64,000 nt of DNA from assembly GCF_006438825.1 (NCBI RefSeq), contig NZ_RCZP01000013.1:59180-123179 (forward strand). The letters are read 5' to 3'. The number at the start of each line of letters is the position of its first letter. Position 1 is the first letter of the stretch. Both the position numbers and the translations under genes were made by a program. Positions 1 through 10,124 of this stretch are shown here, piece after piece. The stretch is from Muricoccus nepalensis. Lineage in GTDB: Bacteria; Pseudomonadota; Alphaproteobacteria; Acetobacterales; Acetobacteraceae. The notes below the pieces were generated by a model. That model was given only the letters and a program-made list of their open reading frames with translations, was not told the origin of the DNA and ran no database searches.

Positions 1-76
1 CTTTGGGAAGGGGCGGCGCTAGTAGAACTCGGCCGCGTGCACCAGGATTATGAATGGGTGGATATTCTAACTGTGA

Positions 77-370
77 GTGGCCAACCACCTCAAGGTCCTG
101 GCCTCCAACCAAGCCCTCCGCCTAGACTCCGGCTGTATCGAGGCTCACAGCGCCCTGGCCGAGGACACCACCGACCAGGACATGGCCCGCCTGCACCTCG
201 AGAAGGCCGTCAGGATCGGCCAGGATCTCTGGCACCCCCTCGCCCGCGCTCGGGATGACTTCGCCTAGTGGGGCGTGACGGCCACCCGCCCGTTCGTGCG
301 GACCATTAAGGCGCTGGGCGCCTTGGCCGCGGAGATGCGTAACGAGAGGATTGCTGGGACCTGCTGCGTG
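77..370 (+). pseudogene. Remnant of a TPR-type protein with an in-frame stop
   Basis: The frame beginning GTG at 77 encodes a TPR-like stretch (ALRLDSGCIEAHSALAE, then LHLEKAVRIGQDLWHPLAR). It is broken by TAG at 266-268 and then resumes in the same frame as WGVTATRPFVRTIKALGALA. That second part resembles the ETRPFxR segment that follows TPR units in a family of small plasmid and genomic-island TPR proteins (recalled similarity, not searched). Beyond about 370 the frame no longer looks like protein. No start signal or operon partner is visible upstream. I read it as a decayed cargo gene; function is not assignable. Confidence 0.4.
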
Positions 371-469
371 GAGGCTCCCAGCCGCCTGGGCAAGGGACGA
401 GCGAGCGGCCCTCTTCTGGGAGACCCTATCATCAGCGCAGCAAGGACGACCGCGCCGCGCCCCTACCGT

Positions 470-1471
470 CTAGCGTCCTGACTCCCTTCCAGTCGCTTTC
501 AGCAGGCCATGAGCTTCGTTGATCTTCCGAGTCAAGGCATCGGCGACGGCACGGATTTCCGGGCTGAGATGAGCGACCTTGTCTGGATGGTTAAGCGCAA
601 TCAGCTTCCTGAATGCAGCGCGGACCTGTTCCTGCGTGAAACCTGGCTCCAATCCGAGGACGGTCATGGCCTCCGCACGGTCCATCTGCTTGGTGCCGGG
701 AGGAGGGCGCCTGTCCCGCGGTCCCGCCGAACCATTCGAGCGAGTACGCCCCTGGGCGGGTTCGACAACCACGGCGATGCAGGTCGCCGAATAGTCGGTC
801 GTCCGATGCCATTTCGTACGATAGTAGGGATTGCCGCGATCGCTGTGCCCAGCGACGACACGCTCGCTCCACGACTCGTCGTGTCGCTCCCAGAAGTAGT
901 CGACGTACGCGTTGCCGCCGACCTGGGCGGTCAGGAGGTCGAGCTGAATGGCCGCCTCCTCTGGCGATGCGGTGCGGCGATGGGTGGCGAGCTTGCGGAT
1001 GACCTTCACGATGGTTTGGCCGGGAACGGTGTCGCGCCGGGACCGTTTAATCCCCATGTTCAAGAGGGAGGTGATCCGGACAACCTCCTTCAACACAAGG
1101 GCGAAGCCGTCCGGTGACAGGTAGTGCGCTACGGCGGCGTAAGGCGTCAGGGGGACAAGCGTCGCCTTGGGTAACTCGTCGAAGGAGCGAATGCGGTTGA
1201 GCCGCGCCGGAAAAAGTCCGCCCGTCGCGGAGCACCGGAAGAATAGGCGGCTTTTCAGGCATTCAGCACAAACGGGGCGATCGGCGTCAAAATCCTTCAG
1301 TTCATACCCATGTATCTGCTGCGATTTGACAAGCTTCTCGCGCAGTCGTCGGTCCTCGGCTGCTTCTGGAGTTCCGTCAAACAGTGTCGACTCAAAACTG
1401 GTTTCGCTGTCGCGGTCGCAGAACTGGCAGTGATTTACATTGTGCCACCAAGTCGAAATGGAGCTGAACAT
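470..1471 (-). CDS. Zinc-finger / C-terminal J-domain protein
   Basis: A 333-residue protein with a C-terminal J domain. Residues 263-325 contain LGLEPGFTQEQVRAAFRKL followed by the HPD tripeptide (295-297) that stimulates Hsp70 ATPase in J proteins. The N-terminus has Cys15-x2-Cys18 and Cys68-x2-Cys71 pairs plus Cys80, which could bind zinc. The middle (about 90-250) has no domain I recognise. There is no Gly/Phe linker or DnaJ zinc centre, so it is not DnaJ. It is the last gene of the leftward element operon, 154 bp after the helicase stop. A co-chaperone role for an element-encoded complex is possible but inferred. Confidence 0.65.
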   Translation of the reverse strand: MFSSISTWWHNVNHCQFCDRDSETSFESTLFDGTPEAAEDRRLREKLVKSQQIHGYELKDFDADRPVCAECLKSRLFFRCSATGGLFPARLNRIRSFDELPKATLVPLTPYAAVAHYLSPDGFALVLKEVVRITSLLNMGIKRSRRDTVPGQTIVKVIRKLATHRRTASPEEAAIQLDLLTAQVGGNAYVDYFWERHDESWSERVVAGHSDRGNPYYRTKWHRTTDYSATCIAVVVEPAQGRTRSNGSAGPRDRRPPPGTKQMDRAEAMTVLGLEPGFTQEQVRAAFRKLIALNHPDKVAHLSPEIRAVADALTRKINEAHGLLKATGRESGR

Positions 1472-1625
1472 CGGCGGTTCCGTGCGTGCCCCTCACCTTA
1501 CCGCCTATGGGCGATCTGCAAAGGCGCCGGATGCAAGAAAGCCGAACGGAGCAGCGCTGTTGCATGAAGTCAGCGGGAATGCCCATGCCTCATTAGATTA
1601 CCGGCTGCCGTCTTGCGAACTTGGC

Positions 1626-3575
1626 TTACCTTCCTTTTGGATCGAGCCCGTGCGCCGCTTTGAGCAAACCATTCAGTCCGACCTCGCGCACATGCGACGC
1701 GGGGGGCTGAGTGATTGAAGCCCGGACAGCGTTCAGATCACCTACGATGACGATCTGCCGCACCCCCCGGGTAACCGCCGTGTAGATCATCGTACGGTCG
1801 ACGCGTGCGCCGTGCGGTACCACTACAACGACCCTCTCGAAGCCGGTGCCCTGCGATTTGTGCACGGTGAGGCCGTATGCCAAGTCGACGTCACCCAGCT
1901 CTCCGGAGTCAATGGCGTGAACCCGGCCATCGAACTCAGCCTGGATGCCCCCTTTCGACGTGACCTCTACCACCCGTCCCAGTGACCCATTCCACAACTC
2001 ACGCCGGTAGTCATTCCTTGTCCAGAGGATGGGGTCACCGACCGCGAGTTGCCGTTCCGGTACGCGCTGCCGACCGACTGCATGGATCTTATGCAGATGC
2101 CGGTTAATGGCAGCGACACCGCCCGCGCCCGCCCTAACCGGCGATAACACCTGCATCTCCCCCCCTGCCCGCCCAAGATCCGCCAGGACATCCGTAACCG
2201 CATCCAGGATCTCATCCTGCGCGCACGCGAGCACGGTCACACCCCGCGTCGTTCCAGTACGCCAGGCACGAAGCAGCGGCACCAAGCCGGTGCGGATGTC
2301 CGCGGCAACATCAGGGATGCCCGTCGCCTGAGCCTGACGGTGGACCTGGAGCAGGGCAGCCTTAGGGACAGCGGGCTGGTTGGCAAGAAGATGGAAGGTC
2401 AGCCCAAATCCAATGGGTGGCAGCTGATAAGGATCGCCAACCAGGACGAGGCGATAGCCCTCACCCACGGCCCTGAGGATCCTGTAGAGCAGAGGGAGGT
2501 CCAGCATGCTGGCCTCGTCGACAACCAACAGTGGACCGGTGCTGGCTGTGACCTCGCCCCGGGCCGCGGCACCAAGGAAGGAGGCGATGGTTGTCGCGTG
2601 CCGCCCAGTGGCTTCCCGCATCCGTGCGGCAGCTCGCCCCGATAGGGCCATCTGATGCACCGTTAAGCCTAGGTGTTCAGCGAGATCTCCGAGTACCCGG
2701 AGCGTCGTCGTTTTGCCCGTACCCGCACCTCCCAACAGCAGTGCCAAGGGATTCAGCAGAAGTCGCCGAACTGCAGCACCCTGCTCCTCGGTCAGACCAG
2801 CCATCGCATCCGGCGGCAAGGCATCCAGGCCACGCTGGATAGCTGCTCTTCCGACGAGGAGATCATCCATCCCAGATGATGTCTGCATCCCGGCAAGTCG
2901 GTCAGCGACATACCGCTCCATGACGTGGGCACCAGCGGGTTGAAGACCCTCGCCCTGGGGGATAGCCGCACCCTCGGCTTCGGCCATCCGGACAGCACGC
3001 GCGGCGACGCCTGGTCCTGAGCCGAGCAGGGAGGCCACCCCGGTCAGAATGGCATCACGCGGGGTCCAGGTGTGCTGCTGTTCCAGACGCCGGTAGAGAA
3101 CAGCCTCCACCGCGGCCACCAACCGATGATCGTGGCCAGTGCCGAAGCCCAGGTGTCGCGCGGCCGCGTCAACCCGGGCCCAGGGTGCGACGGCGATCAG
3201 GACGTAAGGGTTCTCCCGAATACGCCTCAGGACGCCCTCCCCCCAGAACCGGACGGCCTTGAGCGCAAGACGGGCTTCGAAACCCTGCTCATCGAGCCAG
3301 GCCACCACGTCAGCCTCAGCCAGCCGCTCCCGCCAAGCCGCCACCAGTGTCCCAGCTCGGTCGTCGCCGACCACCGGCATCAGGACTTCCAGATTGCCAT
3401 CGCTAAGGGCTCGATAGAGATCGGTTCCCAGGGCCCGCCACAGGGCGGCCGCTCGGGTGACGCCGATACCCTCGAATGCCGGGTTCGTGGCCAGGTAGCG
3501 GACGATGAGCTCGCCACGGACGCCGGGAGGGGAATACCGCCGTCCGACGATAGGATGGGCGCCATCTAGATGCAC
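1626..3575 (-). CDS. RecD/TraA-type SF1B ATP-dependent DNA helicase
   Basis: A 649-residue superfamily 1B helicase of the RecD2/TraA type. Walker A GGAGTGKTT is at 282-290, Walker B LLVVDEASM at 349-357, motif III LVGDPYQLPPIG at 378-389, motif V AYGLTVHKSQG near 566-576 and motif VI YTAVTRG near 598-604. Residues 1-200 fit the helix-hairpin-helix N-terminal region of RecD2-like proteins. The length is somewhat short against RecD2 (about 720-750). GTG 3575 has a GAGG at suitable spacing, but the frame stays open upstream with no ATG, GTG or TTG, so the start is not certain. It sits downstream of three recombinases and may act on DNA during excision, or be cargo (inference). Confidence 0.85.
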   Translation of the reverse strand: MHLDGAHPIVGRRYSPPGVRGELIVRYLATNPAFEGIGVTRAAALWRALGTDLYRALSDGNLEVLMPVVGDDRAGTLVAAWRERLAEADVVAWLDEQGFEARLALKAVRFWGEGVLRRIRENPYVLIAVAPWARVDAAARHLGFGTGHDHRLVAAVEAVLYRRLEQQHTWTPRDAILTGVASLLGSGPGVAARAVRMAEAEGAAIPQGEGLQPAGAHVMERYVADRLAGMQTSSGMDDLLVGRAAIQRGLDALPPDAMAGLTEEQGAAVRRLLLNPLALLLGGAGTGKTTTLRVLGDLAEHLGLTVHQMALSGRAAARMREATGRHATTIASFLGAAARGEVTASTGPLLVVDEASMLDLPLLYRILRAVGEGYRLVLVGDPYQLPPIGFGLTFHLLANQPAVPKAALLQVHRQAQATGIPDVAADIRTGLVPLLRAWRTGTTRGVTVLACAQDEILDAVTDVLADLGRAGGEMQVLSPVRAGAGGVAAINRHLHKIHAVGRQRVPERQLAVGDPILWTRNDYRRELWNGSLGRVVEVTSKGGIQAEFDGRVHAIDSGELGDVDLAYGLTVHKSQGTGFERVVVVVPHGARVDRTMIYTAVTRGVRQIVIVGDLNAVRASITQPPASHVREVGLNGLLKAAHGLDPKGR

Positions 3576-3601
3576 GAAGAACCTCAGAGCCTGTGGGAGG
3601 T

Positions 3602-4042
3602 CTACACAGCCACTCGCCGTCCGGTCTCCACTATGTGTGCCTCGATGTGCCGCAGGCGATCCAGCTCCCCGCGTAGGCGGTTCCTCTCCGCTCGCAGGGA
3701 CCCATTCTCCGCCTTAAGAGAGGCGTTGGCCTGCTCGAGCTGGTGGATGCGCCGGTCACGTGGATCGGGGCCATCCGCATCGCTGCTTGCCGCCCCTTTC
3801 GAGTGATCAGGCATCCCAAGTCCAAGGCGGGAGACTGCATCCTCCAGAAGGCTTCTGGCGCCGGGATTGGCGTACAACACGTTGCGGTCGAAACGGCAGG
3901 CCAGAGCGATCGCGCTGAGGTTTGCCTTCCCGCCCCGCTCTGGTACGCGGACTCCATCCGCCTCCAGGGAAGCGATGTAGGAGCGCAGGACCTCGACGTT
4001 CTCAGCGCCCCGCTCCCGTCCCGATCGGGGTGCGTCAACCAC
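3602..4042 (-). CDS. Small HTH-like/coiled-coil protein (TnpC-like candidate)
   Basis: A 146-residue protein from GTG 4042, which overlaps the preceding stop by 8 bp (GTGGTTGA). The N-terminal half (NVEVLRSYIASLEADGV, then ANLSAIALACRFDRNVLY) looks like a small helix-turn-helix. The C-terminal half, about residues 85-140, is a strong heptad coiled coil (IHQLEQANASLKAENGSLRA). This is the plan of DUF6262/TnpC-like accessory proteins of Tn554-type recombinase modules, which influence integration. Family membership is inferred from layout and context rather than a search. Confidence 0.6.
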   Translation of the reverse strand: MVDAPRSGRERGAENVEVLRSYIASLEADGVRVPERGGKANLSAIALACRFDRNVLYANPGARSLLEDAVSRLGLGMPDHSKGAASSDADGPDPRDRRIHQLEQANASLKAENGSLRAERNRLRGELDRLRHIEAHIVETGRRVAV

Positions 4043-4496
4043 CGTTGGCTCTCCGGGCGACAGACCACCCACGGTCGATGACGGGCATCGGTTGAGCGAG
4101 ATCCGCCGCCGACACACCACGCATGTGCGCGTTGTACTGGTATAGGGCGAACTGCTCCTCAAAGGCGGTCAGCTGCGCTTTGAGCTTGGCCACCTCGGCG
4201 GCAAGTTTCTCCGCGCGCTGGAGGTAGATACTGTCGGCCGGGTCGAGGATGACCTTACGCTGCCTCCGGGAACTCTCCTCCCGGCAGAGTTTGTACGCCA
4301 CCTTGATCTCCGGGTGCCGCTCCAGCGCTTGGCGGGTCCACCGGTATCCAAGCTGGGCATCCGTACGGTCGACTAGGCCTGCCCATGTGATCTGATCCCC
4401 ATCCCAGGACTGGATGACCCCGACCACACGGGCGACCAATCCCGGCGTGATGGCAACGCGCTTCAACGCCTCGGGGGCAACCCGCCTAAGCCGCAC
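4035..4496 (-). CDS. Small helical accessory protein of the recombinase operon
   Basis: A 153-residue protein. GTG 4496 is chosen because a GGAGG lies 8 bases upstream and the start overlaps the preceding recombinase stop by 11 bp, the same overlap as between recombinases 2 and 3. Longer readings from further upstream would run inside the recombinase gene. Residues about 25-60 form a possible helix-turn-helix (ITWAGLVDRTDAQLGYRWTR). Residues about 85-115 form a coiled coil (EKLAAEVAKLKAQLTAFEEQ). It is probably a DNA-binding helper for the recombinases, analogous to TnpC; no specific family is recognised. Confidence 0.65.
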   Translation of the reverse strand: MRLRRVAPEALKRVAITPGLVARVVGVIQSWDGDQITWAGLVDRTDAQLGYRWTRQALERHPEIKVAYKLCREESSRRQRKVILDPADSIYLQRAEKLAAEVAKLKAQLTAFEEQFALYQYNAHMRGVSAADLAQPMPVIDRGWSVARRANGG

Positions 4497-6489
4497 GGGA
4501 AGTCCTCCCCCCGGAAGGAACAGCTCCAACCTGATTGCTGCTGGACAACGTGATCTGGACCAGGGTGCCATCCTCCACGGCGTTGTCGCCATGGACCTCC
4601 AGGGCAGACCTCAGGGCATCTCGCATCCGCTTGTGGTGGGCGACGAAGTTGTTGGCTCCATAGGTCTCCTCCCCCGCCTCGGCTTCAGCACCGGCGAGAA
4701 GGAACTCGTGTTCCTCCAGCAAGACCTCTGCTCGGGCGCGCCGCACCGCATCGCCCTTGACCAGGAGGTGCTGCGGGCACGCGGCGCAGCTGCCGTGTTC
4801 CATGCACGGCGCCAGCGACCAATCATTCGTGCACATGCCGAGATCGGTGGTGTGTGCCGTTGCGAGCTGAGAGTCGCGGAACGCCTTCCGGTCTGCGAGT
4901 GGAAGACGATCATGAACACGGGCGATCGGACCGACGAGCTTGCCTCCGGCCAGGTGCGCGCGTGCCCGCTCGGCGAGTTCGAAACCGCTGGTGTGGTCAT
5001 AGGCCGCGTTCTGGCCGACGTCCTTCCGACCAGACCAGCGGGCGATCTCCATTTGTCCCATGCCGCCCTGTTGGGCCAGGGTGTTGAGCCAGTGCCGGAA
5101 CTGATGCGACCTCATGTTCATCAGGGACCCATCGGCCTCTTTGAACCCAAAGCGATCAAAGACCGTACGCATGGTTAATCGAGACGTCAGGAAGTCAGCA
5201 ACATTCGCGTTGGTAACTGGAAGAACGATTGCCGGGATCTCCCCACGGACGCTGTGGAACATGTTCAAGCAGGTCAAGAAGAGCTGCTTACTCACACCCT
5301 GAACCTCTCCTGGTTGGTTCAGCCAGCTCATCCTCTTGCGCATCGCCCTTTCAAGCACGGCGAGAGGAACCCCTTGCCGCACTGACCCTGATGTACCGCA
5401 CCAAAGCTTGAGCAGGCTTGCCCCATGGACAACATCGAGCATCTCAGGGATGTCGTGTGCCGTAACAATCGTATGGAGGGCTTTTCCTCGCCACCCATCT
5501 GGCAGCCAAGCTCTCCCAGGGTTCGCCACGTTCCAGACCGCCACCTTGCGGAAGGGTTCGGTGATCCTGGTGATGTCCGCTACGGCCCTTCGCGCCACGT
5601 CGACCATGGCGGTCGGGATCCATTTGACCGATGGGCCGCCGCCCTTCTCCGCGAAGTAGCGGATGCCATATCGCTGGAGCGGATTACCCGCCGCGTCGAG
5701 GATCGGCTCCCCATTGTGGACGACGGGTTCGAACACTTCGCAGTCCGCCGGGACCGTCAGCAATTCGTTGATGCGCCAACCGCCACAGACGAGGAGTTCC
5801 ACACATCGCATGAGGAGGACGTCGCCTGGTTCGACAACCAAATTGGCAATCTGCGCCAAGGCATCGAGAGAGGCCTCGCTTGGCAAGTTGCGGTCGCGCC
5901 TCTCCACTGAATCGGGGTCGATGCGACTGTCACCGTGTCCCGAACGGGGAAACGGATTCACGAAGTCGATCGTGATCTTGGTCAGGTTGAAGCGGCTGAT
6001 ATAGCCGACAAGTTCGAGGAGGTGCTGGCCCGTCTTGTACCGAGAAGACGGCTCCTCTCGTGCTTTGACCTCCTTGCACGCGACAATGAAATCCTCGGGC
6101 AAGAGGTCGGCCAGCTTCGCACCGCGGGCCTCCAGAGCATCATAGAGATACCGCGCCGCGCGAATGATGATCGAATGTGTCGAGGAGAACTTGGCTCCGC
6201 GCTGCTGCCGAAGACAGACCACCGCCTTCAGGAATGAGGCAAAGGGTTCCCGCAGTGGGATACGCCTGTCCATGCTCTTCGCATGGCCGCCCTCGTGCGT
6301 GGTGAAGTAGAGGCCGATTCTCTTCTTCGTGTTAGACGCCCTCCCTCCGAAGGGTAGCGTCCACAGCGGCTCATCAAAGTTCAGAGGTACAGGGAAGACG
6401 CCGATGGCCTCCCGCCCTTTGGCAATGAAGACCACCAAATTCTGGGCGGCAGTTCGAGCTTGAGCGCTCGGAAGTTGTTCAACCGACAT
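4486..6489 (-). CDS. Large tyrosine recombinase with Cys-rich C-terminus (recombinase 3)
   Basis: A 667-residue site-specific tyrosine recombinase. Arg239 (CGGWRINEL) is the first catalytic arginine, His462-x-x-Arg465 (SHQFRHW) is the second box, Trp485 lies in the third box (ARWSGRK) and Tyr497 (AAYDH) is the likely nucleophile, so the catalytic set looks complete. Residues 1-220 form an N-terminal DNA-binding region. After the catalytic domain Cys553, 562, 568 and 571 make a probable zinc site. Size and cysteine tail recall Tn554 TnpB. ATG 6489 overlaps the recombinase 2 stop by 11 bp, implying coupled translation. Confidence 0.87.
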   Translation of the reverse strand: MSVEQLPSAQARTAAQNLVVFIAKGREAIGVFPVPLNFDEPLWTLPFGGRASNTKKRIGLYFTTHEGGHAKSMDRRIPLREPFASFLKAVVCLRQQRGAKFSSTHSIIIRAARYLYDALEARGAKLADLLPEDFIVACKEVKAREEPSSRYKTGQHLLELVGYISRFNLTKITIDFVNPFPRSGHGDSRIDPDSVERRDRNLPSEASLDALAQIANLVVEPGDVLLMRCVELLVCGGWRINELLTVPADCEVFEPVVHNGEPILDAAGNPLQRYGIRYFAEKGGGPSVKWIPTAMVDVARRAVADITRITEPFRKVAVWNVANPGRAWLPDGWRGKALHTIVTAHDIPEMLDVVHGASLLKLWCGTSGSVRQGVPLAVLERAMRKRMSWLNQPGEVQGVSKQLFLTCLNMFHSVRGEIPAIVLPVTNANVADFLTSRLTMRTVFDRFGFKEADGSLMNMRSHQFRHWLNTLAQQGGMGQMEIARWSGRKDVGQNAAYDHTSGFELAERARAHLAGGKLVGPIARVHDRLPLADRKAFRDSQLATAHTTDLGMCTNDWSLAPCMEHGSCAACPQHLLVKGDAVRRARAEVLLEEHEFLLAGAEAEAGEETYGANNFVAHHKRMRDALRSALEVHGDNAVEDGTLVQITLSSSNQVGAVPSGGRTSRAA

Positions 6490-8059
6490 GGTTATGATCC
6501 CCAGACTTAGTGGCGGCGACTCGGCTTACGACATCGGCAACGGCCAGGATGGTGGTGTCGGTGAGCGCCACCATCCGGCCGTCCAAGCCCCCCTCTTCTC
6601 GCCGCTTACGCTCGGCCAGCAGGTCACGCAGGAGTTCCTGGTGTGGGGCATCCAACCAGGGCTGGAACTTGTTGCAGGTGTAGCAGGCGACCGGCGCGTT
6701 CAGCCCGCAGAAGGAGAAGGACCCGCAGGTCCCGATCGGGTCGAGGGCTGGTGCCTCCCGATCGTGCCGGTAGATCCTCGCGCCCGCTTCCCCACCCCTA
6801 ACCGCCAAGGCCTCGGTGCGGACCAGATGGCCGAGGAAGGCCTGCGAGATCGGACCCAGGGTCAGAGCCATGGCTTCGTCGAGCTTCTCAACGATGTCCG
6901 ACTTGAGGTCGAAGTAGCACTGGACGTTTTGGAGGTCCGTATGATCCAGCGTCTCCGCGACCTCCCGCTGAGAAGCCCCCTCCCGCACGAGGCGAGTGGC
7001 GAAGGTGTAGCGGAAGCGGCGGCACGTCGCCTGGAGTGCTTTACCGGTCCTGGGAGAGACGACGCCAAGTTGGGCGACACTCGTTCTCACAAGACTGCCG
7101 AATTCGTCCGTCGACATGCTCAAGGCGTATTCATGGAACGCGCCTCCTAGCCGAGCCTCCCGGAGGTACGGCCGCATAAAGACCGGCATCGCCACGCCCG
7201 CTGGAACTCCAGCGCCCAGGGATGCCCGGTTCTGGGAGATCAACTCCTGAACAAGAGAACCGATCTCGCGGGTCAGCTTGCGGGTCTTGAACTCGTGCCG
7301 TTCACGGGCGTGCCTTTTCTTTATACGGGCAACCCGGATCTGGTAGAACGCTCCGTCGGAGTCCGGCTCCTCCAGTTCCAAAAGGTCGTCCGCCCGCATC
7401 AGCACATACTGCTGGTTATTGCCACCCAGAGCTGTGCACAGCCAGATCGCCACCTGCTGCTGCAGGGAGATCCGCCCATCGTCCCGAGATGCCCGCAGAG
7501 CGTTCAGGAGAGCCGTGGTCTCAATGTCATTCAGAGGACCACCATCGGGGTCCAGGGACAGCACCGCGGCGCCCTTGGCGTTCCCACCGAACCGGATCTC
7601 ACGAAGCTCGAAGCAGACCTCGGCTGAGAAGCGTGGGTATCCTTGATCGCAGCACCATTCGTACCAATCCCGAGCATAACGGGCGAGATACCGTGCGTGC
7701 TCGGGGTACGAACCGATGAGTTCGGACATGAACGCCATTCCGATCGGCTCACCGGGGATATCGATAGACCTGAAATACGGAAGTCCAGTCATACGGCTTA
7801 GCATCGAAAAATAATGACTGATGCCACCCGCACGCTGGCTCTTGATGATCTCCGCCATAAAACAGGTCATTCCGGCGAGAAGGTCGTAGGAGCTGACATT
7901 AATCGCGCTCCAGTCGAATGAGCGCCTGCCCGTTGCCTCGTCATAGCGCCAGATCGGGGTATCTGTTTGAACCGGACGGCCACCCTTATCCCGGATGATG
8001 CCATGGCCAGGGAACGGCCGACCATTGGGATCAGGAGAGTTATTGAAGGCGAGGCTCAC
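6479..8059 (-). CDS. Tyrosine recombinase-fold protein with altered active site (recombinase 2)
   Basis: A 526-residue protein of the phage-integrase fold. The first catalytic Arg position reads GGNNQQ (about 212-217) and the HxxR box reads RRFRY (347-351). Arg I and the box-II histidine therefore appear replaced, while Arg350, His373 and Tyr382 (LDHTDLQNVQCYF) remain. The C-terminal tail has Cys445, 451, 459 and 462 and a CNKFQPWLDAPHQ motif, a likely zinc site shared in style with recombinase 3. GTG 8059 forms a GTGA overlap with recombinase 1. It may be an architectural partner rather than a full catalyst (inference). Confidence 0.83.
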   Translation of the reverse strand: MSLAFNNSPDPNGRPFPGHGIIRDKGGRPVQTDTPIWRYDEATGRRSFDWSAINVSSYDLLAGMTCFMAEIIKSQRAGGISHYFSMLSRMTGLPYFRSIDIPGEPIGMAFMSELIGSYPEHARYLARYARDWYEWCCDQGYPRFSAEVCFELREIRFGGNAKGAAVLSLDPDGGPLNDIETTALLNALRASRDDGRISLQQQVAIWLCTALGGNNQQYVLMRADDLLELEEPDSDGAFYQIRVARIKKRHARERHEFKTRKLTREIGSLVQELISQNRASLGAGVPAGVAMPVFMRPYLREARLGGAFHEYALSMSTDEFGSLVRTSVAQLGVVSPRTGKALQATCRRFRYTFATRLVREGASQREVAETLDHTDLQNVQCYFDLKSDIVEKLDEAMALTLGPISQAFLGHLVRTEALAVRGGEAGARIYRHDREAPALDPIGTCGSFSFCGLNAPVACYTCNKFQPWLDAPHQELLRDLLAERKRREEGGLDGRMVALTDTTILAVADVVSRVAATKSGDHNHVG

Positions 8060-9192
8060 CGGTTTTTACCCCTATAGCTCTTGGCTTGCAGATAAAGCAT
8101 GCGGCGGTTTGCCGCCTCGCGCGTATGGCGGGTGGTGTAGTGCGCTGCCTGTTTGGAATTCCGGGACCACCCCATAAGGTAAATGCGCTCCCGGATCTCG
8201 TCCGCATCCTTCACCTTCTGCTCGTCCATTAAACGAGAAAAGGCGTCGTTCCACGTATGGCGGAGAACATGGGCGCTCAGGTTATGGGGGAGTCCTGAAA
8301 CTCGTTTCCGGAGCAGCTGGAACATATCGCTTACGCTTCGCTTGGCGAGCGGTTTGCCCGTGCGAGAGACAAAGACATAAGGAGTCTTCTTCGCTGCCCC
8401 ATAGCGCGCCGGGTCCCTACGGTGTTTGGTAATCCACGTCTGCAGCGCCTCCCAAAGATCGCTCCCCAGGGGGAGTACCCGTGCCGCCGTTTTCACAAGC
8501 GGCTGCGCCAGGCGGAGATCATCCCGATCGTCTGGGCGACGATGCACAGCGAGAGTTGGCCGATCTCCGGACAAACGGAGATCCTCCCCCTTTACGACCA
8601 GGGCCTCCGAGAGGCGGACACCGAGATCGAGGTAGGTGAGAAGGAGGGCGTAATTCCGGTGACGATGCTGCCTTTGGAAAGGGTTTTCCGGATGATTGGG
8701 GTGGATTACTTCGCGCAAGCGGGCAGCCGTCTCCTCGGCCAAACCTTCACGGCCGACAGAGCGCGGCTTTGACAACATGGACGTCATGTTGTTCCGGAAT
8801 TCCGTTACGCGTGTACGCGCCGGGATGAACCTGGCATCTGCGTTTGGAATACGCTGAACCACCCACTGGGCACGCCAGACAATATAATCACGGACGTAGA
8901 GACAGCGATTATAGTGCGTGAGTGAATTAACCCTGCCGTCCTGGGGACGAATACGGTTAATCCAAAGGGCGTCGCGCAGCGCTAACACCTCATCGGGTGT
9001 TAGGAGCTCAGCGGATTCCAGGCGTGCTTCGAGATCAATGCCCCGCTGATCAGCCCAGGCCAATGCCACGGCAATTGCCGAGACTTCCTGGAACATAGTC
9101 GAGACGGAACCCTGATGGGCACGACGGAGAACTAGGCTGTACCTGGTAACCCACGGTAGGGGGAGGCCGACCCGGGTATCGTAAAGCAGCAC
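8056..9192 (-). CDS. Tyrosine recombinase (recombinase 1, TnpA-like)
   Basis: A 378-residue tyrosine recombinase and first gene of the leftward operon. Catalytic residues are visible: Arg193 (DLGVRLSEAL), His308-x-x-Arg311 (SAHVLRHTW), the third-box region with Trp342 (MGWSRNSKQAAHY) and Tyr352. Residues 60-145 form the core-binding SAM-like domain. Its length is close to Tn554 TnpA (361 aa). The start is GTG 9192; an internal ATG about 30 codons later is possible. The 360 bp upstream carry repeats typical of a recombination site, so this gene faces the element end. Confidence 0.87.
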   Translation of the reverse strand: MLLYDTRVGLPLPWVTRYSLVLRRAHQGSVSTMFQEVSAIAVALAWADQRGIDLEARLESAELLTPDEVLALRDALWINRIRPQDGRVNSLTHYNRCLYVRDYIVWRAQWVVQRIPNADARFIPARTRVTEFRNNMTSMLSKPRSVGREGLAEETAARLREVIHPNHPENPFQRQHRHRNYALLLTYLDLGVRLSEALVVKGEDLRLSGDRPTLAVHRRPDDRDDLRLAQPLVKTAARVLPLGSDLWEALQTWITKHRRDPARYGAAKKTPYVFVSRTGKPLAKRSVSDMFQLLRKRVSGLPHNLSAHVLRHTWNDAFSRLMDEQKVKDADEIRERIYLMGWSRNSKQAAHYTTRHTREAANRRMLYLQAKSYRGKNR

Positions 9193-9409
9193 GAATCGTT
9201 CGCCATGGGCGAACCTCGTAGGGCTAACGACGTACCGGGCTACAATATGTCCAACAAGGAACGGGCCTCCAGAGCGACCCGGTTGTAGGCCGCCCTGATA
9301 ATTTCCGTCTACCTAAATTTTTGAGGCCTACGCTCAGCGACATCTAGTTTACACGCAGGGTGCAAACGTTTCTGTAATTCGCCCAAGTTTACTGGGTGAA
9401 AACGCCCCC

Positions 9410-9470
9410 GTTCCCCTTCTGTGTTTACAAATCCAAGTACCGCGTGCTTTCGGGCGCTCAGAAGGGGAAC
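9410..9470. repeat. 12-bp inverted repeat near element end
   Basis: GTTCCCCTTCTG at 9410-9421 is matched by its exact complement at 9459-9470, with a 37-bp spacer. Matching continues with one mismatch on each side. The spacing is too wide for a simple terminator and fits accessory binding sites of a recombinase or a repressor. Confidence 0.6.
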
Positions 9471-9517
9471 AGGGCTACACGAAGAAAGCAATTAAGATGT
9501 TGAAAACGTTCACCAAA

Positions 9518-9547
9518 CGGTAGCTAGTTTACACTTTCTAACTACCG
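9518..9547. other. Candidate tyrosine-recombinase core site
   Basis: Arms CGGTAGCTAG (9518-9527) and CTAACTACCG (9538-9547) form an inverted repeat with 9 of 10 positions matching around a 10-bp spacer. This is close to the geometry of a recombinase core site. It lies 5 bp from the ssb stop codon, where base composition jumps to the chromosomal level. It could instead be a weak hairpin after ssb, but no T-tract follows on the ssb strand. Confidence 0.45.
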
Positions 9548-9551
9548 CCCG

Positions 9552-10124
9552 CTAGAATGGGATGTCGTCGTCGAGGTCCGCCTTGGGCGCGTCCCAGCCG
9601 CCACCGCCGCCACCACCGCCGCGGGCCGGCTTGGCCGCCCCGCCGGAGGAGGCGCCGCCCCGCCCGCCGCCATAGCCGCCGCCCGAGGCCCCGCCCCCGA
9701 AGCCGCCGCCGGAGCGCTCGCCCCGGTCGCCGCCGAAGCCGCCGCCGGCCTCGTCACCGCCGCCGCCGCCCTGGTTGCGGCCGCCGACGAGCGTCATCTC
9801 GCCGCGGAACTGGCGCAGCACGATCTCGGTGGAGTAGCGCTCCTGTCCCTCGTTCGTGGTCCACTTCCGGGTCTCAAGCTGGCCCTCGAGGTAGACCTGG
9901 CTGCCCTTCTTCAGGTAGCGCTCGGCGATCTCGCCGAGCTTCTCGTTGAAGATCGCCACCGAGTGCCACTCGGTCCGCTCCTGCTGGTTGCCCTCGCGGT
10001 CCTTGTAGCGCTCGCTCGTCGCCACCCGCAGGTTCACCACCTTCCCGCCGTTCTGGAAGTTCCGGACCTCGGGGTCCTTCCCCAGCGACCCCAGGATGAT
10101 CACCTTGTTGACGCTGCCGGCCAT
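9552..10124 (-). CDS. ssb: Single-stranded DNA-binding protein
   Basis: A 190-residue SSB. The OB fold occupies residues 1-110 ([20 protein letters not shown], then [13 protein letters not shown] and [11 protein letters not shown]). A long glycine-rich linker follows, and the protein ends in the acidic tip DDDIPF that recruits replication and repair partners. ATG 10124 gives the conserved N-terminus. It is divergent from uvrA, and a LexA box lies between the two. Its 3' end abuts the mobile element without damage, so the element inserted just downstream. Confidence 0.97.

Follow-up and report, generated by a model that had tools for sequence, protein, structure and literature searches.

A helicase-bearing GInt island at the 3′ end of ssb in Muricoccus nepalensis

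The closest described relatives of the element reported here, a genomic island of the alphaproteobacterium Muricoccus nepalensis, are the members of the GInt (Tn6571) family. These have three recombinases and the small protein GinD encoded in one operon at one end, with the cargo genes behind it (PMC5385486). The DNA analysed, referred to as the window, is a stretch of 64,000 bp corresponding to positions 59180-123179 of contig NZ_RCZP01000013.1 (C32:59180-123179, where C32 denotes the contig). It contains the recombinase end of an island of approximately 35 kb that is inserted between ssb and gyrA. The island is an alphaproteobacterial, helicase-bearing GInt sited at ssb. A preliminary description of a block of seven genes at this end had held that the architecture exactly matched none of the systems with which it was compared; it did not name GInt, whose ginABCD genes are present here at the typical ssb 3′ site (PMC5385486).

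The ssb gene is the site of six of the eleven GInts analysed in the literature, and insertion at its 3′ end spares the SSB protein, as it does here. Defence-type cargo, also found in the present island, is known from GInts of E. coli (PMC10121019). Gin operons of Alphaproteobacteria are listed in PMC5385486, whereas the survey of PMC10214605 found no ginC-ginD blocks in this class.

Further systems share parts of this arrangement. The Gamma-Mobile-Trio (GMT; gmtY-gmtZ-gmtX) is likewise a multi-recombinase operon, and in a subset of GMT islands a VPA1267-like gene and a RecD-like helicase gene follow directly behind it; GmtZ and GmtX are, however, not recognisably GinC and GinD. GMT islands carry antiphage cargo (PMC12039261). 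SE elements (intA-tfp-intB-srap; PMC10214605) also combine several recombinases with a small protein, but in a gene order other than that of gin, and a copy-out route has been proposed for them. Their proteins are reported to be separate from GinC and GinD in protein networks, and the word ‘helicase’ does not occur in that paper (PMC10214605). Tn554 (TnpA, TnpB, TnpC) resembles the GInts in its small accessory protein, TnpC, to which GinD has been likened (PMC5385486). GinD is in turn related to Orf5, the product of the gene behind ginD in the present operon. Tn554 has two recombinases and is not known to encode a helicase, and membership of Tn554 or of the RIT elements was ruled out by gene number and sizes.

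The gin operon and the genes behind it

The present operon differs from the GInts described in the abstract, results and discussion of PMC5385486 in being extended by two genes, those for Orf5 and for a RecD2-like helicase, which are absent from that description. The genes at this end of the island are listed below, with their occurrence in a comparison set of 79 ginC loci from six named phyla, which includes Pseudomonas gin loci and 36 alphaproteobacterial loci.

8056..9192, minus strand: GinA, 378-aa tyrosine recombinase, XerC-like (PF00589); found at 74 of 79 loci
6479..8059, minus strand: GinB, 526-aa tyrosine recombinase (NF041502, 344.5 bits, cut-off 350; PF00589); found at 75 of 79 loci
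4486..6489, minus strand: GinC, 667-aa protein of tyrosine recombinase fold
4035..4496, minus strand: GinD, 153 aa, GTG start at 4496 (mechanical open reading frame to 4592); found at 72 of 79 loci
3602..4042, minus strand: Orf5, 146 aa, GTG start at 4042 (mechanical open reading frame to 4162), VPA1267-like; first gene of the putative accessory pair
1626..3575, minus strand: RecD2-like SF1B helicase, 649 aa, no relaxase domain found; second gene of the putative accessory pair
470..1471, minus strand: 333-aa protein with a Cys-rich N-terminus and a C-terminal J domain; first cargo gene

As the preliminary description had stated, the seven genes share one strand and lie in DNA of lower guanine plus cytosine (GC) content, which is 0.58-0.67 per kb in window positions 1-10000 and 0.70-0.79 in the rest of the window. 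The overlaps that it gave also hold: 4 bp (GTGA) between GinA and GinB, 11 bp between GinB and GinC, 11 bp between GinC and GinD and 8 bp between GinD and Orf5, the last two resting on the GTG starts at 4496 and 4042. Lengths taken from these starts agree with most relatives better than do the longer mechanical open reading frames. Three tyrosine-recombinase-like proteins and a small GinD, ordered ginABCD at one island end with variable cargo behind, are traits of GInts, and all four genes were detected in 66 of the 79 loci. GinD is 21-36% identical to 18 GinD proteins of other loci. Its profile drifted on iteration and also matched Orf5 (101 matches); genes were assigned by best score.

GinC has been described as lacking the first arginine (PMC5385486) and as lacking the catalytic RHRY motif (PMC10214605). 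The present GinC differs in keeping R/K/HxxR/Y: residues R239, K282, H462, R465 and Y497 are invariant in 29 of 29 aligned proteins (the present one and 28 relatives). In a profile alignment, the H-x-x-R and Y of a solved Xer recombinase are matched by H462, R465 and Y497, while R239 aligns with the Xer GxR in a weak stretch of 5 bits. Because all five catalytic-type residues are kept, GinC may be an enzyme despite being called catalytically incomplete in print. No GinC relative was confirmed among 102 pattern matches in viral contigs, and a phage origin is thus without support there. In Bradyrhizobium GInts several extra open reading frames lie between ginC and ginD (L014:11986-14827; L021:11932-15682), which indicates that the gin operon itself can hold cargo.

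An hhalign comparison shows Orf5 to be a homolog of GinD (probability 96.9, E 2e-10); against NF040697 Orf5 scores 42 bits, under the cut-off of 90. The AF2 model (pLDDT 81, with low confidence ahead of residue 41 of the long form) predicts a few short helices resembling a helix-turn-helix, followed by a 47-residue helix that may form a coiled coil. The helicase matches the RecD2 model TIGR01448 at 341 bits (under the cut-off of 500), PF14490 (HHH_RecD2) and PF13604, and contains the Walker A motif GGAGTGKT and the sequence VVDEASM. Its best match of solved structure is RecD 3e1s/3gp8, the RecD2 of Deinococcus. Walker A is intact in 25 of 25 GInt and 5 of 5 GMT helicases, and a DEASM-like second motif is found in 22 of 25 and 5 of 5, respectively. 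The host has a second RecD2-like helicase of ordinary type (G000:C120:106485-108359), which groups with chromosomal RecD2.

The island helicase also gives TraA/TraI-type matches, as would be expected if the pair derived from a conjugative relaxase-helicase, as a remnant or fragment, and the island were an integrative mobilizable element. However, it is without a relaxase domain and its best NCBIfam match is RecD2 with the HHH domain. Furthermore, no relaxase or secretion family was found among 17 island proteins compared with Pfam (four large cargo proteins were compared with PADLOC and NCBIfam only, and not every island open reading frame was scanned). Such an origin is therefore very improbable, and a conjugative element is disfavoured on the same count of 17 proteins.

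The genes for a helicase and a J-domain protein had been recognized in the preliminary description, and domain matches agree, although the J domain itself scores 27.4 bits against PF00226, slightly under the cut-off of 27.8. The J protein was found at none of the 79 ginC loci, a database search gave one close homolog at 50% identity, with three other matches covering 15-32% of the query, and no relatives were found in viral contigs. A place for the J protein in the mobility machinery, which had been considered, is ruled out by its absence from the 79 loci and from viral contigs; it is cargo. Behind the helicase the cargo consists of this protein, a histidine phosphatase, a DUF4403 protein, a DUF3644 protein (PDC-S19), an FtsH-like AAA protein and a DEDDh exonuclease-like protein, and DUF499, DUF3780, DUF1156 methylase, GmrSD (type IV restriction) and PLD-helicase proteins, these last matching anti-phage models. 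The defence-like cargo, including the DUF3644 and FtsH-like AAA proteins, lies at C32:34257-58500, left of the window (L002, L005).

Insertion between ssb and gyrA

On the contig the low-GC stretch begins near C32:33.8 kb and ends near 68.7 kb; its GC content is 0.54-0.69 per kb, whereas that outside is mostly 0.70-0.80. The stretch thus extends about 25.4 kb past the left edge of the window and ends just before gyrA (C32:30951-33719, identified from its protein sequence). Because it runs on leftwards to gyrA, the seven-gene block is the recombinase end of an island of approximately 35 kb (C32:33774-68739), with the gin operon at one end and the cargo on its far side, and not the whole element. 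The right end of the element lies at window positions 9554-9560.

Fourteen genomes of this genus (congeners) were examined, and all 14 have gyrA and ssb as direct neighbours without an intervening island. The island is an insertion between the two genes, and the block is not syntenic in all relatives. The earlier proposal of a mobile element equipped with three tyrosine recombinases was right. When two congener empty sites are aligned, the gyrA flank matches to approximately CTCAGAA and the ssb flank matches from the ssb tip onwards. One of the 14 congeners (L085, G014:C14) carries a different GInt elsewhere in its genome, with a GinC 37% identical to the present one. The features at the right end of the island are as follows.

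9554..9560, no strand: attL core AGAATGG, aligned with the two congener empty sites; the second copy (attR) is at C32:33774-33780, beyond the window
9509..9553, minus strand: terminal inverted repeat of the right end, pairing with C32:33781-33825 at the other island end; TGTAAAC at +19 after the ssb stop
9193..9553, no strand: non-coding gin end of the island, with three GTTTACA repeats (9347, 9423 and 9527)
9552..10124, minus strand: ssb, 190 aa, the target gene; the element supplies its TAG stop and leaves the C-terminal DDDIPF tip in place

The ginA gene adjoins the 3′ end of ssb, and the element ends at the ssb stop and tip. The TAG stop supplied by the element replaces the TGA expected at the empty site, and the DDDIPF tip is unchanged. 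Insertion is thus site-specific at the 3′ end of ssb with the SSB product unaltered, a further trait of GInts. AGAATGG is found at both island junctions (C32:33774 and 68733) and forms a direct repeat of 7 identical bases, or of 10 in 11 with a single gap. Inside AGAATGG the island ends carry an inverted repeat, consisting of AGnGGGCGGnAGT, a short gap and then TGTAAACT. Its alignment score was equalled in 7 of 2000 dinucleotide shuffles and in none of 2000 other island windows.

The same target is used repeatedly. Where more than 700 bp precede ginA (64 loci), ssb lies no more than 1.2 kb upstream of it in 37. In a separate test, 37 of the 73 loci with plus-strand GinA had a DDDIPF-like tip with a stop in the 900 bp ahead of that gene. 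The GInt 3′ end has been reported as poorly conserved and without a common feature (PMC5385486, published in 2017). The motif TGT[AT]A occurs at +18 to +21 from the ssb stop in 22 of 38 ends, the present island included. Counted by 20-bp windows, it is most frequent in the first, with 24 of 38 ends; of the other nine windows, eight have it in 1-7 of 38 ends, and there is a second peak, of 15 of 38, about 110 bp inwards. The motif is a feature of the gin end, and in the present island it is found at the far end too.

The Orf5-helicase pair in GInt and GMT islands

An Orf5 relative and a RecD2-like helicase follow ginD in 26 of the 79 ginC loci, 25 of which have full ginABCD. The helicase therefore recurs with the recombinases in the same order; of the seven genes, six recur together and the J protein gene does not. 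Orf5 was not found without a helicase match at any of the 79 loci, while a helicase match without Orf5 was found at three. A 4-bp overlap joins the Orf5 and helicase genes in 17 of the 26 loci, and in 23 the two overlap or lie less than 50 bp apart; at the other three (L009, L011 and L014) the helicase match starts 196-1147 bp off. Hosts of the pair belong to the Alpha-, Beta- and Gammaproteobacteria, Myxococcota, Thermodesulfobacteriota and Acidobacteriota.

Searches of 385 alphaproteobacterial genomes, in which the best candidates per genome were scored (3 for GinC and helicase, 10 for Orf5), gave a strong GinC (>400 bits) in 4 and a strong Orf5 (>100 bits) in 3, with the genome of the window in both groups. 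Each of the three strong Orf5 genes belongs to a different one of the four gin loci, and no strong Orf5 was found away from GinC in these 385 genomes. The best three helicase matches belong to the same three islands (1411, 512 and 250 bits), after which other RecD2-like proteins begin at 219 bits and continue downwards. NF040697 was a weak probe of the same genomes, with 3 matches at E<1e-7, 3 at E>1e-4 and none above its cut-off. Protein distances across 21 loci are correlated between helicase and GinC (r 0.71), helicase and GinA (0.75) and Orf5 and helicase (0.88), with 0 of 2000 permutations as high; L009, L016 and L073-L075 (broken or near-copies) and loci without GinA were left out of this comparison.

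The pair is not confined to GInts. A plasmid search with the Orf5 relative gave 46 of 72,556 records, many annotated ‘VPA1267 family’ beside gmtX. Four regions are annotated as gmtY, an integrase-family or VPA1269 protein, gmtX, VPA1267 and an AAA ATPase, the second gene being presumably gmtZ, judging by its place. A fifth region has the same genes under other names, the last being called RecD-like helicase YrrC. In these five GMT regions the overlaps are 1-8 bp and the last gene matches the GInt helicase profile at 577-607 bits. In a sixth region (Photobacterium, L172) it is a GInt that precedes the same pair. The helicase lies directly behind the Orf5 relative in at least 33 of the 46 plasmid records, counted on 60 listed of 331 helicase records; 264 of the 331 match at <60%. 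The match is near full length in 13 of the 33 and covers 68-70% of the query in 20. A small Pseudoalteromonas ‘plasmid’ (L194, NZ_CP118497.1; 23,860 bp, circular) may be an excised GMT circle: it has gmtY, an integrase, gmtX and VPA1267, together with the first part of the helicase at the edge of the record. The pair on a Photobacterium replicon (L192/L195, NZ_CP119424.1) is followed, a few hundred bases on, by a predicted qnrS-like gene.

A tree was made of 47 helicases, without L016, L073-L075 and pieces of at most 550 aa; in it all GInt and GMT sequences group together, apart from 13 chromosomal RecD2, with support 100. The GMT helicases sit among those of GInts, in what was a quick search with long-branch warnings. 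Because the helicases cluster while GmtZ cannot be recognized as a GinC nor GmtX as a GinD (profile probabilities of 0.3 for GmtZ against GinC and 15 for GmtX against GinD), the sequences indicate that two different recombinase systems, GInt and GMT, have one helicase module in common. The earlier comparison with GMT was a useful lead in that GMT islands hold the same small-protein/helicase pair. This shared pair would also be expected if the element were a GMT relative, or a GMT/GInt hybrid, and not a GInt. However, the seven proteins gave no match to a GmtX, GmtY or GmtZ model at E≤0.1 and the recombinases match ginABC loci throughout, which together with the low profile probabilities makes this reading extremely unlikely; GMT membership was rejected.

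In some GInts and GMTs the pair could instead be simply the leading cargo: two genes for defence or anti-restriction, expressed from the operon promoter and without a role in movement. The helicase does match PADLOC RecD-type models (e.g. PDLC01734, 170 bits), defence cargo is reported in print for both families, the gin operon is probably transcribed on into the cargo (PMC5385486), and 43 of 72 GinD loci manage without the pair. Cargo of this kind would not, however, be expected to be mostly fixed directly after ginD or gmtX, with closely joined genes, to include a homolog of GinD itself, or to be co-inherited with GinA and GinC and to leave no strong Orf5 away from GinC in the 385 genomes. 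This explanation is considered unlikely, although it is the most serious of the alternatives.

Proposed movement of the island and the probable part of the pair in it

The reading that we favour, and hold to be reasonably probable, is that the island is a GInt of approximately 35 kb between ssb and gyrA which ginABCD insert and excise at the DNA encoding the SSB tip DDDIPF, probably with the help of Orf5 and the helicase. That the ginABCD products act at this DNA is predicted from sequence. GinA, GinB and GinC would cut and join strands at the core AGAATGG, flanked by inverted GGGCGG[T/G]AGT arms, and recombination at the core would give a circle able to enter ssb tips elsewhere. GinD and its relative Orf5 would steer the complex in the manner of TnpC of Tn554. 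The helicase may unwind the strand left open after exchange of one strand, which would let replication copy the island out as a circle, by the route proposed for SE elements. Helicases of the RecD2 family have 5′-to-3′ polarity. A helicase of this polarity with a DNA-binding-like partner would fit SE copy-out, in which, as proposed, a single strand is joined and the circle has to be released by replication (PMC10214605). The pair would then be an optional booster and not a core enzyme, with the J protein and defence-like genes as cargo.

Since the same pair also follows the recombinases of GMT islands, it is likely to help islands move, and we think it on the whole probable that it is a portable mobility accessory, absent from most GInts. 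A bolder proposal, put forward tentatively and with some doubt, is that the pair is a portable motor traded between GInt and GMT that turns site-specific recombination into copy-out transposition, its carriers being a distinct, faster-spreading class for which the SSB tip codons serve as a universal landing site in distant phyla.

Several observations weigh against the favoured reading. A minimal pseudomonad GInt with ginABCD alone integrates and excises in the laboratory, and excision as a circle requires all four gin genes (PMC5385486). The helicase is therefore unneeded for the basic reaction, and the pair is best seen as an accessory. Copy-out has been modelled for SEs, and some GInt strains yield the empty site. 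The direct repeat has 7 identical bases, fewer than the imperfect repeats of 10-17 nt reported to flank GInts (PMC5385486). The 43 GinD loci without the pair have neither an Orf5 nor a helicase match (5 of them with less than 2 kb behind ginD), and three further GinD loci have a helicase match without Orf5. On a GinC tree of 76 rows, also a quick search, pair presence needs 16 changes against a shuffled mean of 21.7, so that the pair appears optional and often lost, gained or swapped. Its tie to GinD is weaker (GinD-helicase r 0.42 and GinD-Orf5 r 0.34 over the 21 loci). Individual loci also depart from the pattern: L017 and L030 have another, long-branched helicase variant between ginC and ginD, with GinD kilobases further on; L023, which ends soon after, has a short helicase match only; the frames of Orf5 and of the helicase are broken in L009, and the helicase of L172 is split into two frames. 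Among the matches listed (134 GmtX records in all), 39 of 60 GmtX records have a VPA1267-like match, and the 68-70% matches in 20 of the 33 plasmid records suggest that many GMT helicases may be cut short, which lowers confidence slightly.

Finally, the helicase is also present in 26 plasmid records of Salmonella; in the one region examined (H79), no gmt, gin or VPA1267 gene is annotated next to it. The preliminary description would have been overturned had the helicase and J protein been found mostly apart from the recombinases; this is the case for the J protein, whereas the helicase subgroup keeps to the recombinases in the alphaproteobacterial genomes searched, the Salmonella records qualifying the result. 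On Salmonella IncC plasmids (L191, NZ_CP022063.1) the GMT-type helicase match runs from residue 96 on, beside mercury genes, and this helicase is likely to be a remnant.

A search of titles and abstract openings in the open-licence literature for the pair, VPA1267, gmt genes and RecD2 in islands found no description of the pair. As far as that literature shows, the six-gene GInt variant, the pair common to GMT and the conserved motif at the element end are new. The comparison adds 36 alphaproteobacterial ginC loci, where one published survey had none and the first GInt paper listed some. It also places a defence-rich island at the end of ssb, which to our knowledge is a site that nearly every bacterium has. 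Transfer of GInts between cells has been tried and was not seen (PMC5385486). GinC retains residues of catalytic type in all 29 aligned proteins, although it has been called catalytically incomplete. The most interesting new point is the module common to GInt and GMT islands: the helicase and the TnpC/GinD-like protein behind the recombinases of both are a candidate shared motor.

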